Shown one piece after another: positions 4,616 to 61,206 of a stretch of DNA of 64,000 nt. This DNA comes from Streptococcus sanguinis (GTDB lineage: Bacteria > Bacillota > Bacilli > Lactobacillales > Streptococcaceae). The notes beneath the pieces are model-generated. The model did not search any database. It saw only the letters and a program-made list of their open reading frames with translations, and was not told where the DNA came from. The DNA lies in NCBI RefSeq assembly GCF_013343115.1, contig NZ_CP054570.1, forward strand, positions 2,230,501-2,294,500, given 5' to 3'. Each line of letters begins with the position of its first letter. The stretch's first letter is position 1. A program made the translations under genes and the position numbers.

Positions 4616-6877
4616 ATGTCAAACTTACAAACTTATATCAAAAATACTTATTCAAAAAATCTTGCTGATTGCAGCAACGAAGAACTCTACCTGGCTCTTT
4701 TGAACTACACTAAATTAGCCAGCGCTCAAAAGCCAGTCAACACTGGTAAGAAAAAACTCTACTATATCTCAGCAGAGTTCCTGATTGGTAAACTCTTGTC
4801 TAACAACTTGATCAATCTTGGACTTTACGATGATGTGAAGCAAGAGTTGGCAGATGCTGGTAAAGACTTGATCGAAGTAGAAGAAGTTGAGTTGGAGCCG
4901 TCTCTGGGTAACGGAGGCTTGGGCCGTCTGGCTGCCTGCTTCTTGGACTCTATTGCGACACTTGGTCTCAATGGTGATGGTGTAGGACTGAACTACCATT
5001 TCGGTCTTTTCCAACAGGTTTTGAAAAACAACGAACAGACAACTATTCCTAACTTCTGGCTGACTGAGCAAAACTGGTTGGTTCGCTCTAGCCGCAGCTA
5101 CCAAGTGCCATTTGCTCACTTCACTCTGACATCTACTCTTTATGATATTGATGTGCCAGGCTACAAGACAGAAACTAAGAACCGTCTTCGTCTCTTTGAT
5201 TTGGACTCAGTGGATGCAGATATCATCACAGACGGTATTGACTTTGATAAGACAGATATCGCTCGCAACTTGACCCTCTTCCTCTATCCAGATGATAGTG
5301 ACAAGCAAGGGGAATTGCTCCGTATCTTCCAGCAGTACTTTATGGTTTCAAATGGTGCTCAGCTGATTATTGACGAAGCGATTGAAAAAGGCAGCAACCT
5401 GCACGACTTGGCAGACTATGCTGTCATCCAAATCAATGATACCCACCCATCTCTGGTTATCCCAGAAATGATTCGTCTCTTGACTGAGCGTGGTTTGGAT
5501 CTGGATGAAGCAATTGCCATCGTACAGAAGATGACTGCTTATACGAACCACACAATTCTGGCAGAAGCTCTTGAAAAATGGCCTCTGGAATTCTTGAAAG
5601 AAGTAGTACCGCACCTGGTACCAATCATCAAAGAGCTTGACAAGCGCGTTAAAGCTAAATACGCAGATCCAGCAGTGCAAATCATTGATGAAGACGATCG
5701 TGTGCACATGGCTCACATGGATATCCACTACGGATACAGTGTCAATGGGGTTGCTGCTCTGCATACAGAAATCCTAAAAAACTCTGAGCTCAAAGCCTTC
5801 TACGATATCTACCCTGAAAAATTCAATAACAAGACCAACGGTATTACTTTCCGCCGCTGGCTCATGCATGCCAACCCACGTCTGTCTCATTATCTGGATG
5901 AGTTGCTGGGTCGCGACTGGCACCATGACGCAACTAAGCTCGAAGGCTTGTTGGAATTCACTGGCGCTGCAAATGTTAAAGAAAAATTGGAAGGCATTAA
6001 GGCTCACAACAAGCGTAAATTGGCTCGTCACTTGAAGGAAGCCCAAGGTGTGGAAATCAATCCAGACTCTATCTTTGATATCCAAATCAAGCGTCTGCAT
6101 GAGTACAAGCGCCAACAAATGAACGCTCTGTACGTTATCCACAAGTATCTGGACATCAAGGCTGGTAACATCCCTGCTCGTCCAATCACTGTCTTCTTCG
6201 GTGGTAAGGCTGCTCCTGCTTACACAATTGCACAGGACATCATCCACCTCATTCTTTGCTTGTCAGAAGTGATTGCTAATGACCCTAAAGTGGCTCCACA
6301 TCTGCAAGTAGTTATGGTAGAAAACTACAACGTTACAGCATCTAGCTTCTTGATTGCAGCTGGTGACATTTCTGAGCAGATTTCCCTGGCTTCTAAGGAA
6401 GCATCTGGTACTGGTAACATGAAGTTCATGCTTAACGGTGCTTTGACTCTTGGTACTATGGACGGAGCGAACGTTGAGATTGCAGAGCTGGTCGGCGAAG
6501 ACAACATCTACATCTTCGGTGAAGATTCTGAGACTGTTATTGACCTCTACGCAAAATCTGCTTACAAGTCTAGTGAGTACTATGCGCGCGAAGCTATCAA
6601 GCCATTGGTTGACTTTATCGTCAGCGATGAAGTATTGGCAGTCGGTAAAGCTGAACGCTTGGAACGTCTTTACAATGAGCTGATTAGCAAGGACTGGTTC
6701 ATGACCTTGCTGGATCTGGAAGACTATATCCAAGTGAAAGAGCGCATGCTGGCGGACTACGAAGACCGCGATGCTTGGATGGACAAAGTCATCGTCAATA
6801 TCGCTAAAGCTGGCTTCTTCTCATCTGACCGTACTATCGCTCAATACGAAGAAGAAGTATGGCACTTGAATAGCTAA
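4616..6877 (+). CDS. malP: Glycogen/maltodextrin phosphorylase
   Basis: GT35 phosphorylase that releases glucose-1-phosphate from maltodextrin using pyridoxal phosphate; second step of the malQ-malP pathway. The ATG at 4616 was chosen over an in-frame TTG at 4601 because GAAGGGA (4603-4609) lies six bases before it; this gives 753 residues. The PLP lysine is K603 in [12 protein letters not shown], and the phosphate/glucan-binding segment KRLHEYKRQ is present near residue 495. It may also act on glycogen; the symbol malP rather than glgP follows from linkage to malQ and MalR. Confidence 0.95.
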
Positions 6878-43308: not shown

Positions 43309-44007
43309 ATGGCAACCTTAGAATTAGTTAGGAAAAAAAGGAACCTTGTCAAACTAACCGAGGAATACTACAATGCTCTAAGTACTAATGTACAGCTGAG
43401 TGGCGCCAATATCAAAATGGTCGAAATAAGCTCGGTGACGGCAAATGAAGGAAAGTCTACAACCTCAGTGAACCTCGCAGCCGCCTTTGCCAGAGCTGGT
43501 CACAAGACCTTGATGATCGATGCGGATATCCGCAACTCAGTCATGTCAGGTGTGTTTAGCAGTCAGAGAAAAGTATCAGGACTGACGGACTATCTGTCAG
43601 GACAGGCTGCCCTGCACGAAGTCATCAACGATACAGATCTGGAAAATCTGGATGTGATCTTATCTGGTCCAGTATCACCTAATCCGACGGGGCTTTTGCA
43701 AAGCAAGCAGTTTGATGCGCTTTTGACTGATTTACGTGTTCGTTATGACTATATCATTGTGGATACTTCACCGATTGGTCTGGTCATTGATGCGGCTATC
43801 ATCGCTCAGAAATGCGATGCCAGCTTCTTGGTGACACAAGCAGGCCATATCAAACGAAAAGCAGTCATGAAAGCTAAAGAGCAGTTGGAACAAACGGGAA
43901 CTCCTTTTTTGGGTGTTGTCCTCAATAAATATAACATTGATTTGGAACGCTATGGCGCCTACGGAACTTATGGGGGATATGGCAGCTATGGCAATTATGG
44001 GAAATAA
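43309..44007 (+). CDS. wze: Tyrosine-protein kinase Wze/CpsD
   Basis: 232-residue BY-kinase. Walker A is TANEGKSTTSVNLA (about 43-56), Walker A' LMIDADIR near 72, Walker B VDTSPIG near 145. The autophosphorylated tail is a Tyr-Gly cluster, ERYGAYGTYGGYGSYGNYGK, with six tyrosines. Controls assembly of the surface polysaccharide together with Wzd and Wzh. Confidence 0.96.
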   Translation: MATLELVRKKRNLVKLTEEYYNALSTNVQLSGANIKMVEISSVTANEGKSTTSVNLAAAFARAGHKTLMIDADIRNSVMSGVFSSQRKVSGLTDYLSGQAALHEVINDTDLENLDVILSGPVSPNPTGLLQSKQFDALLTDLRVRYDYIIVDTSPIGLVIDAAIIAQKCDASFLVTQAGHIKRKAVMKAKEQLEQTGTPFLGVVLNKYNIDLERYGAYGTYGGYGSYGNYGK

Positions 44008-59393: not shown

Positions 59394-59573
59394 GTGAAAT
59401 TCTTTAAAGACGTTTTTAAATTATTGAAAGATACAACTTGGCCTACCCGAAAAGAGAGATGGACAGATTTTATTTCTGTCATGGAATACACTGCATTCTT
59501 CGTAGTGATCATCTATATCTTTGACAAAGTAGTGGCAAGCGGTCTTTTCCAGATTCTGAATATTTTCTCTTAA
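59394..59573 (+). CDS. secE: Protein translocase subunit SecE
   Basis: 59 residues from GTG 59394 (TAGGAG six bases before). Single-helix Gram-positive SecE: the conserved amphipathic stretch LLKDTTWPTRKERWTDF is followed by the membrane helix (about 32-54). Normally nusG follows at once; here 1.6 kb intervene. Confidence 0.95.
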   Translation: MKFFKDVFKLLKDTTWPTRKERWTDFISVMEYTAFFVVIIYIFDKVVASGLFQILNIFS

Positions 59574-59617
59574 TGATTTAAGTAGAAATAAAAAAGTCTA
59601 CAACAGGCATATTATTC

Positions 59618-59652
59618 AAAGTCCCATCTATTGTGAGTAGGTGGGACTTTTG
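59618..59652 (+). terminator. secE terminator
   Basis: AAAGTCCCATCTA / TAGGTGGGACTTT stem followed by TTGACG. The inner part CATCTA-TTG...TAG resembles the stem-loops of the two RNA genes downstream, so it may be a divergent relative of them. Confidence 0.8.
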
Positions 59653-59683
59653 ACGTATGTAGTTATTCTATTTTAGGTGAAGC

Positions 59684-59784
59684 TTGACAAAGTATAAAAA
59701 AGGGGCTAAAATAGTATACCTAGGATAGGTTGTATGCATGTACAATCGAGGACTCTCATCTATTGGCGTAGATGAGAGTTTTTT
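59684..59784 (+). ncRNA. Small RNA gene 1, putative antisense regulator (promoter plus ~66-nt RNA)
   Basis: Promoter TTGACA (59684-59689), 17-bp spacer, TAAAAT (59707-59712), predicted start near 59719. The RNA contains GTTGTATGCATGTACAATCG (59729-59748), which folds as TTGTA/TACAA around the loop TGCATG. A terminator follows with stem CTCTCATCTA / TAGATGAGAG, loop TTGGCG and six T (to 59784). No reading frame. The 20-mer is antisense, with one bulge and a 3-base for 1-base difference, to the start-codon region of the leftward gene at 60062-60418. Confidence 0.75.
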
Positions 59785-59886
59785 AATGAACCATTCTGGC
59801 AGGATATAATTTTCTAAATGGTTGTTAGTGAGTTTAGATTTTTTATCTTCTCAAAATCTATGACACATACTATTTTTATATAACAC

Positions 59887-59987
59887 TTGACAAGGTATAA
59901 AAAATAAGTTATAATATAATTCCGTGATAGGTTGTATGCATGTACAATCGAGGGCTCTCATCTATTGGCGTAGGTGAGAGTTTTTTT
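59887..59987 (+). ncRNA. Small RNA gene 2, near-identical to RNA 1
   Basis: Promoter TTGACA (59887-59892), 17-bp spacer, TATAAT (59910-59915), start near 59922. It repeats RNA 1 almost base for base: the same GATAGG, the same 20-mer (59931-59950) and the same stem-loop with loop TTGGCG, ending in seven T at 59987. Differences are A to G changes in the spacer and stem. Spacer sequences of the two promoters also share GTATAAAAAA/ GGTATAAAAAA starts, so whole units were duplicated. Confidence 0.78.
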
Positions 59988-60012
59988 ATAGAAATTCTCC
60001 CAGAATAAAGCC

Positions 60013-60046
60013 GGAGCCCTCATCTATTGGCGTAGATGAGGGCTCC
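60013..60046 (-). terminator. Terminator of the leftward basic-protein gene, third copy of the stem-loop
   Basis: 14-bp perfect stem GGAGCCCTCATCTA / TAGATGAGGGCTCC with, on the plus strand, the loop TTGGCG. Read leftward the loop is CGCCAA, the exact complement of the loops of RNA 1 and 2. It lies 15 bases beyond the stop of the 118-codon gene. The following T run is weak (CTTTATT). Confidence 0.75.
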
Positions 60047-60061
60047 TTGGTTGCACCGGAA

Positions 60062-60418
60062 TTACTTCTTCCGGCGCTTGTTGTTGTGCTTTCCCCGCTT
60101 CTTATTGCTGCGGTTTTGCTTGCGCTGCTGCTCGTTCTTGCTGAGCAAAAGCTCCTCGAGCTTGCGCTCGTCCAGCTTAGTGAGCTTGCGAAGTTCAGCA
60201 TTCTTCTTCCGAAGAAGACTGATCTGCTTCCGCAGGCTCTGCTGACGCTTTTGCTTGCGCTTCTCCAGGAACTTCTTTCCCGAAGCAATGAGGTCCTTGA
60301 GGACCTCGTCAACGAGCTTATCAGCCGTCTTCTTGCCCAAGTAGAGCAGGACGACGGTGATAACAACCGAGATGTTGGGAGCGAGAGAGTGGATGGCGTC
60401 CGTGATAGTGTTGAGCAT
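60062..60418 (-). CDS. Putative membrane-anchored basic protein, candidate target of the small RNAs
   Basis: 118 residues. One hydrophobic helix (about 15-30, NISVVITVVLLYLG) is followed by a long Lys/Arg/Gln-rich helical tail with coiled-coil character (about 48-118). AAAGGAG lies 9 bases before ATG 60418. Codon use is alien to its neighbours: all 23 Lys codons are AAG and third positions are mostly G or C, which points to recent transfer. Its start region and terminator are complementary to the two small RNAs. I do not recognise the family; a small-RNA-controlled toxin or a phage/plasmid membrane protein are possibilities. Confidence 0.65.
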   Translation of the reverse strand: MLNTITDAIHSLAPNISVVITVVLLYLGKKTADKLVDEVLKDLIASGKKFLEKRKQKRQQSLRKQISLLRKKNAELRKLTKLDERKLEELLLSKNEQQRKQNRSNKKRGKHNNKRRKK

Positions 60419-60524
60419 GTCAATCGTCTCCTTTCATAGGACATGCGGATGTACCTGAATGCTGCTAAAGAATACATGTCTTCTTTAATGGCTTGTCAGG
60501 CTTGCTTGTACTCTAAGGAGAAGA

Positions 60525-60563
60525 TTAGTTGATGGGCTGCTGGTCTGCAGTCTCTTTCTTCAT
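60525..60563 (-). CDS. 12-codon leader peptide frame
   Basis: ATG 60563 with the best ribosome binding site of the region (AAGGAGG, six bases before) encodes MKKETADQQPIN. It lies 106 bases upstream of the basic-protein gene on the same strand. Whether it is a leader peptide coupling translation, or a remnant, is open. Confidence 0.4.
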   Translation of the reverse strand: MKKETADQQPIN

Positions 60564-60691
60564 AATCTCGCCTCCTTAAAGATATTAATAATTTGTTCAA
60601 ATAAAAAAGCCACACTCGCAGCTTGCCATTTGAACACCTGTGAAATCAGAATTTTTTTCCAACTGGAAATACCTTCTGATTCGACATTCAT
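60560..60691 (-). CDS. Possible 43-residue small protein
   Basis: Frame from ATG 60691 to TGA 60560, overlapping the 12-codon frame by 4 bases (ATGA). Product starts MNVESEGISSWKKILISQ and has an amphipathic hydrophobic stretch, ending FKEARL. The ribosome binding site (AGAGG) is distant. Its DNA is AT-rich, unlike the basic-protein gene. Low confidence. Confidence 0.3.
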   Translation of the reverse strand: MNVESEGISSWKKILISQVFKWQAASVAFLFEQIINIFKEARL

Positions 60692-61206
60692 TTGTTCAGC
60701 AAAAAAGACCTCTCAAACAAGTTCAAAGCACACCAAAAAGCGATTCTACTAACAAAACATCCTATGTAGTCAGTTTTGAAAAAATCTTTCTTAGTGTTCT
60801 TCAAGCCATAGCCCGAAAAGTCATAATATTACCGATAGTCATAAATGTCTAAGCTGTCACACAAAATCTTTCAAAATACCAATCCCATAGCTTCGTAGAT
60901 TGTTTTTCTGTATTTTGGTACTATCTCTTAAGCAGTCTAAGTCTCAGTAAAGATTAGAAAGTCAGTTCTTAAAGATAGAATGAAGCCGACAGGCCTCATA
61001 CCCAACTGAAAAGTAAAAATATTAAATTATAGATTTATTATACCATTTTATATTCCCTTGTCAAGAATTTTGAGGCAGAATTAAAAGACTTTGATTTGTC
61101 AGGAAAATAGTTAATAAATTCCTTTGCATTTGAGGAAATTATGGTATAATAGGGCTAGAAAGAAGCAGAAGCCCGCAGGCTTTTTTATTTAGGAAAGGAT
61201 GAACTC
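60692..61206. promoter_or_regulatory. Gene-free region between the basic-protein unit and nusG, with divergent promoters
   Basis: About 515 bases without a supported gene. On the minus strand there is a very strong promoter: TTGACA (61064-61059), 16 bp, extended TGG-TATAAT (61042-61037), giving a long leader toward the small frames and the 118-codon gene. On the plus strand an extended -10 TG-G-TATAAT (61142-61150) drives nusG. The stretch 60700-61020 contains only short hairpins and AT-rich sequence. Confidence 0.6.
61152..61190 (+). promoter_or_regulatory. nusG leader with terminator and competing hairpin
   Basis: A short terminator AGCC-CGCA-GGCT followed by TTTTTATTT ends 10 bases before the nusG ribosome binding site. 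Upstream GGGCT (61152-61156) can instead pair with AGCCC (61170-61174), which uses the same bases as the terminator arm. The two structures exclude each other, the hallmark of attenuation. Confidence 0.55.

Follow-up and report, generated by a model that had tools for sequence, protein, structure and literature searches.

The interval between two core genes of the oral species Streptococcus sanguinis, which we take from their sequences to be secE (59394-59573) and nusG (61207), contains a cassette of ~1.4 kb (59668..61060) that is probably a par-like variant of a type I toxin-antitoxin system in which the membrane toxin is large and of a new kind; the cassette is missing from at least one close genome. 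Positions are those of the window, the whole stretch of 64,000 nucleotides that was analysed. A small RNA complementary to an mRNA and placed behind its own promoter, by which type I systems are recognised, was predicted from the sequence. If this reading is correct, par-like antisense control is not bound to the tiny Fst peptides and also fits a new, larger membrane protein.

Two small RNA genes were predicted on the plus strand, spaced 202 bases and 95% identical over 64 nt, each with a strong sigma-70 type promoter and each closing with a hairpin and a T run. The first, sRNA1 (59719..59785, ends estimated), consists of an antisense 5′ part and a terminator hairpin with a TTGGCG loop, and its promoter (TTGACA-17-TAAAAT, 59684..59712) has 11 of 12 consensus matches. 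The second, sRNA2 (59922..59988, ends estimated), has an antisense 5′ part (CCGTGATAG..CAATCG) and its own terminator behind a promoter (TTGACA-17-TATAAT, 59887..59915) with 12/12 consensus matches. On the minus strand, a promoter with 12/12 matches and a TG before the -10 element (TTGACA-16-TATAAT, 61037..61064) is followed by a leader of ~610 nt, a 118-codon gene (60062..60418) and a terminator hairpin of 14 perfect pairs with a loop of 6 (60013..60046), the T run of which is weak (GGCTTTATTC). The encoded protein, the presumed toxin, has a hydrophobic segment at about residues 9-27, a basic tail and a net charge of 22 positive, and falls in no family. No match to the small RNAs was found in Rfam at the cut-off, and RF02442 (SpF66) was not among the matches for 59560-60700 at E up to 10. 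Weak DNA matches to the sRNA in other streptococci were discarded: none of the 10 loci inspected (L007-L014, L019, L020) carried the antisense part, nine being the terminator of another gene and L014 lying in a repeat-rich stretch.

The sequence-only reading of this DNA had proposed that the RNAs are antisense to the start of the 118-codon gene, matching 16 of 17 bases at 60410-60426. This match exists, and for sRNA2 it is part of a longer one on the minus-strand mRNA that runs from just after the Shine-Dalgarno sequence (SD) to codon 7 (60399..60426). The sRNA2 DNA from 59921 matched 27 of 28 target bases on the plus strand with four gap positions (score 34; equalled by none of 5000 dinucleotide shuffles); the RNA itself pairs at 26/27, because the matched DNA starts one base ahead of the estimated RNA start. 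The sRNA1 match was shorter (score 24, equalled by 9/5000 shuffles). Shuffled controls had been suggested as the check on this pairing, and the real pairing exceeded them also by RNAduplex: the sRNA2 5′ part paired with the gene start at -36.1 kcal/mol, as compared with a mean of -20.0 (sd 2.95) for shuffled sRNA and of -19.7 (sd 3.05) for shuffled targets, with none of 2000 as good in either set. The value for sRNA1 was -31.9, reached by 0/2000 sRNA shuffles and 4/2000 target shuffles. When both strands of the window were scanned in 5112 overlapping 101-nt windows, the gene start was the top sRNA2 target except for the sRNA genes themselves. In the same scan sRNA1 found a better partner on the minus strand at 43550-43700 (-36.5 versus -31.9 for the linked gene). 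As had been claimed, the sRNA loop TTGGCG and the loop CGCCAA of the mRNA terminator are exactly complementary. The additional shared site put forward at 60436-60454 (ATAGG-N8-ATGTAC) proved to be at chance level, with 776 of 5000 shuffles as good. At the level of sequence, the antisense relation between the RNAs and the gene is well supported.

The start of the gene is also predicted to be hidden by structure in the mRNA itself, in two alternative ways. Folding of the full mRNA and of some shortened mRNAs placed the start codon inside a hairpin (GCAUGUC/GACAUGC, 60415..60446, minus strand) with the SD in its loop. A 12-base anti-SD (AAUCUUCUCCUU, 60515..60526, minus strand) complements the SD region at 60422-60433 with one mismatch and has an alternative partner in the SD of a short upstream ORF. 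This predicted ORF has 12 codons (MKKETADQQPIN, 60525..60563, minus strand; SD AAGGAGG at 60571-60577), is unchanged in strain SK355 and ends ~105 bases before the gene, its stop overlapping the anti-SD. When the full-length mRNA was folded, the SD of the short ORF occupied the anti-SD; when the mRNA was shortened to start at 60565 or 60530, the anti-SD covered the SD of the gene. We infer that translation of the toxin could depend on events at the short ORF.

The cassette was found in the secE-nusG interval of two S. sanguinis-type genomes, the window's genome (G000) and SK355 (G047), in which the 2.2-kb region aligns at 96%. The protein is encoded in 2 of the 197 genus genomes searched and the full RNA genes are present in the same two, so homologues of the gene without linked RNAs, which the sequence-only reading had listed as evidence that would speak against it, were absent from this set; because only two genomes carry the gene, the locus offers almost no independent variation. 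Within the sRNA2 gene, 66 bases (59919-59984) are identical in the two genomes, and the SK355 sRNA2 is the same as the window's up to the T run; in the SK355 sRNA1 the final G of the pairing stretch is missing. One base is changed in the SK355 target, turning a G-C pair into a G-U wobble. The open frame is intact in both genomes, the SK355 gene differing by six silent substitutions and four that alter an amino acid, none of these four before residue 50. A protein search returned five sequences, four of them 93-97% identical along their full length and the fifth partial; residues 6-49 are invariant across the five aligned proteins and SK355, homologue P0002 differs additionally at residue 5, and changes lie mostly in the tail. 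In a close genome, G035, the site is empty: the counterparts of window positions 59667 and 61061 are only ~93 bases apart (L067), these bases, which stand in place of the cassette, have no match, and the NusG protein is identical. NusG is also identical in G009, but a different stretch precedes nusG there, and the match to the window begins at 61103, adjoining the cassette site; genes that we take to be polA- and tgt-like, not secE, come before nusG (L066, G009:C1:118500-126000), an arrangement that reflects either a rearrangement or an assembly join. The 118-residue protein had no match in plasmid or phage collections at E 1 and no relative in IMG/VR, and cassette DNA was absent from the plasmids and gave in the phages only a weak match of 40 bases, in four of them. 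Our literature searches, which reached some sources only in part, returned nothing on the locus.

Most of the long leader recurs at a second locus of toxin-like type elsewhere in G000. This structured module of ~420 nt (60595..61012, minus strand) ends just after a terminator-like hairpin (60607..60624, minus strand), and its fold was better than all 100 shuffles (z -4.9). Among 197 genus genomes only G000 and G047 gave long matches, each at two places, and many weak short matches were listed as well; the second place in G000 is 1952293-1952782 (L089 about 5800-6230). Rfam gave nothing convincing for the leader, the best E (0.031) being that of a spliceosomal model below the cut-off. A 43-codon ORF in the leader (60560-60691) was rejected as probably not coding, since its frame is broken in SK355 by a length difference of one base. 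The module is 95.5-97.6% identical over 423 columns to its copies at T1 and T2 (described below); outside it the promoters and downstream parts differ between loci. The comparison by column had different genes at the second locus, T1 for G000 and T2 for SK355: 396 of the 423 leader columns were identical, 5 strain-wise (both G000 loci alike and both SK355 loci alike), 0 locus-wise and 22 single or mixed changes, as compared with 22 locus-wise, 1 strain-wise and 4 mixed columns before the module and 82 locus-wise, 0 strain-wise and 16 mixed among the 156 columns after it. This pattern suggests recent copying or gene conversion between loci within each strain, and the shared leader suggests that a regulatory RNA moves as a separate module. 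GC3 of the 118-codon gene is 0.78, as against 0.34-0.53 in five neighbours and 0.42 in T1, and the leader may therefore have come from a different source than the toxin.

From the computed complementarity, the promoter and hairpin sequences, the empty site and the shared leader we infer the transcripts, the order of pairing, the translational block, the role of the leader and the toxicity in the following scheme. The minus-strand promoter would make an mRNA with the ~610-nt leader and the 118-residue protein; this has a single hydrophobic segment and a strongly basic tail and is presumed to harm the cell's own membrane. The two convergent genes would yield RNAs of ~66 nt. First contact might be made between the sRNA terminator loop UUGGCG and the mRNA terminator loop CGCCAA, after which the 5′ 30 nt of the sRNA would pair with the stretch that starts right behind the SD and reaches codon 7, and would prevent initiation. 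Until the RNAs bind, the start-codon hairpin and the anti-SD at the stop of the 12-codon ORF may keep the mRNA silent, and the shared leader with its terminator may set how often the gene is reached.

Five related loci, T1-T5, encode peptides of 51-53 residues, hydrophobic and basic, with a short upstream ORF and convergent antisense RNAs; by inspection, a single bidirectional terminator is common to both RNAs. T1 is a conjugative-element-type locus (G000:C1:1952029-1952782) next to a 658-residue protein that we take to be a TrbL/VirB6-like conjugation protein. It consists of the leader, a 19-codon ORF, a 52-residue peptide with a hydrophobic start and a lysine/arginine-rich tail, and a terminator that also serves an RNA gene on the opposite strand, the 5′ end of that RNA being antisense to the T1 start. 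T2 is a second copy adjoining T1, and degenerate toxin copies with another two RNA genes at their side are also found there. In G000 the T2 leader is split by an insertion with two ORFs that are presumably transposases (L089 2380-3731); in SK355 it is whole, and the second place of the leader precedes T2. T3 and T4 were found in G009 and T5 in G118. T3, T4 and T5 (L121, L122, L123) are preceded by another long leader, which differs little between G009 and G118 and includes a short ORF starting with ATG or GTG; DNA of plasmid NZ_CP135592.1 is 70% identical to part of it. T1 had no match in plasmids and T3 none in phages (E 0.1). Arrays of antisense RNA genes were observed beside degenerate toxin C-termini in L089 1-5700 (G000:C1:1946500-1952200), L090, L121 and L122, and these RNAs look like spare or anti-addiction antitoxins. 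SK355 retains an RNA with the T1 pairing sequence, T1 itself being absent from our matches in that genome.

We compared all loci in a cross-pairing matrix of 11 RNA 5′ ends with six start regions, from which the SK355 RNAs and one T4 duplicate were excluded. The own target was the best partner for 6/7 RNAs taken as cognate (both cassette RNAs and those of T1, T2, T3 and T4); the seventh, of T5, scored -17.0 with its own target and -19.3 with T3. Strong pairing of sRNA2 was confined to its own gene. The second RNA of the T3 locus paired best with T4 (-33.5), and the three remaining orphan RNAs fitted none of the six targets strongly (best -14.5, -17.7 and -22.2). As the start regions differ between loci, these results give comparative support for antisense control by the neighbouring RNA, and loci in which RNA and target have changed to match would form a natural panel for the evolution of antitoxin specificity.

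In T1-T5 the short upstream ORF contains an anti-SD with which the SD can pair. When six sequences from five related loci were aligned, the same sequences from which the structure was derived and with T1 and T2 one letter apart in this region, 94.9% of 138 cells of the SD/anti-SD hairpin were paired, as compared with 45-54% when the partners were slid. At one anti-SD/SD pair, C-G is replaced by U-A in 2/6 rows and pairing is lost in one. Control against shuffles was mixed: the covariation score was reached by 13/500 and the share paired by 18/500, but pairs changed on both sides were reached by 204/500 and further pair types by 423/500.

The known system that the cassette most calls to mind is par of pAD1 and the Fst family, which includes Fst-Sm of S. 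mutans and streptococcal SpF66/Fst. The portions of PMC7472228 available to us describe for par two promoters that converge, a common terminator at which pairing starts, direct repeats that span the start of translation and a stem that conceals the SD, and report that the YUNR motif is absent from some par loci. This published layout is present in T1-T5. The likeness to Fst/par proposed by the sequence-only reading is borne out in the RNA anatomy of the cassette, which shares the convergent promoters, the antisense direct repeats across the start of translation and the complementarity of the terminator loops, and for which structures that could hide the start are predicted in two alternatives; the protein likewise combines a hydrophobic segment with a charged tail. 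It gains further from a leader common to par-layout loci whose RNAs change with their targets. However, the protein has 118 residues versus 33 in Fst and no detectable Fst signature. Unlike par, the cassette has two antitoxin genes with their own terminators, giving three separate hairpins with matching loops; YUNR (UUGG) stands in the sRNA loop, the toxin mRNA loop CGCCAA having none; and the leader is ~610 nt long with a short ORF. The short upstream ORF with an anti-SD, the basic hydrophobic protein and the convergent antisense RNAs are shared with T1-T5, which differ from the cassette in their Fst-like peptides, in having one terminator for both RNAs, in their pairing sequences and, for T3-T5, in the leader. 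Outside this group, an upstream frame that could couple to toxin translation recalls mok of hok/sok as far as our partial sources describe it; unlike there, the short frame of the cassette ends ~105 bases before the gene, with the anti-SD at its stop. In SymE/SymR, also a type I pair, the protein is of comparable length (SymE, 113 residues), but it is described, in the text available, as not particularly hydrophobic, and the system differs in its organism and in its antisense layout. The other type I toxins compared, from similarly partial sources, were shorter than the 118-residue protein.

Profile tests placed the 118-residue protein with neither group. It matched no library family, Pfam and NCBIfam listed no Fst model for it at E up to 10, and hhalign against four Fst-type sequences gave a probability of 0.4. 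The power of the Fst-model test is limited, control Fst-type peptides themselves scoring below the cut-off: two from SpF66 places reached E 0.0021 and 0.0036 with NF033608, and one hit PF13955 at 0.013. Comparison with the profile of the related small peptides was also not significant (probability 1.3), and the tie to these peptides therefore rests on leader and layout. Since the protein matches neither Fst nor T1-T5 and the terminators are separate, we did not file the cassette in Fst/par; on the RNA side, to judge from the sequences, it would work like a member. T1-T5 are not named as Fst by library models, which recognise the control Fst-type peptides only below the cut-off, and compared with four Fst-like peptides from SpF66 places they gave a probability of 73. 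They match SpF66 (Rfam RF02442) below the cut-off, several over the terminator part only. Six SpF66 places inspected in streptococci all encode an Fst-like peptide (that in L144 has no clear start of its own), and the SpF66 'sRNA' family therefore looks like a toxin mRNA. In the parts of the two papers available, F66 and F67 lie side by side and F67 (M18) is reported as annotated in an Fst system (PMC12323649), and Fst antitoxins adjoin the F66/F67 coordinates in D39 (PMC6212727).

The same antisense control could instead act on a protein that is not toxic, a membrane or nucleic-acid-binding product with a regulatory or mobile-element role and harmless when uncontrolled. The lack of any toxin family match, the 22 net positive charges on 118 residues with a basic tail and hydrophobic N-terminus, and codon usage foreign to the neighbourhood all suit such a product. 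We nevertheless regard it as unlikely: leader and locus plan are common to small Fst-like peptides that are also basic-tailed, the antisense gene is present in two copies, and the cassette is present or missing as one unit between close genomes. A decaying or captured toxin-antitoxin relic, its gene harmless now and its RNAs acting as anti-addiction factors against related incoming elements, is quite improbable. The frame is open in both genomes with its N-terminal half nearly invariant, and sRNA2 pairs strongly with its own gene and not with the five related targets, although related loci do have extra RNAs beside degenerate toxin copies and the SK355 sRNA1 is without the last G of its pairing stretch.

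The RNAs could also be conventional sRNAs that act in trans, mainly on other targets, like the CiaR-dependent csRNAs of streptococci, but we give this explanation hardly any credence. The csRNAs likewise act at start sites, and the best predicted partner of sRNA1 in the window is the 43550-43700 region. But sRNA2 is a near-complete antisense match to the linked gene, Rfam gives no match at the cut-off, and the TTTAAG repeats that form the CiaR site are absent from the promoter regions. A type I toxin-antitoxin variant with a large membrane toxin remains our preferred reading.

More tentatively, and with considerable doubt, the loci of oral streptococci might be seen as one modular, mobile type I family. 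Its 420-nt attenuator leader would be swapped and homogenised by gene conversion among unrelated membrane toxins, one of them a new 118-residue class; the antisense 5′ specificity would diversify with the toxin, and arrays of spare antitoxin RNAs would protect against other versions, toxin release being set by leader attenuation and translation of the short ORF. A profile of the small toxins searched against 284 genus genomes gave strong matches (E below 1e-8) in four genomes and ten weak matches (E 0.001-0.01) in nine others, one of which (G087:C114) overlaps an SpF66 place.
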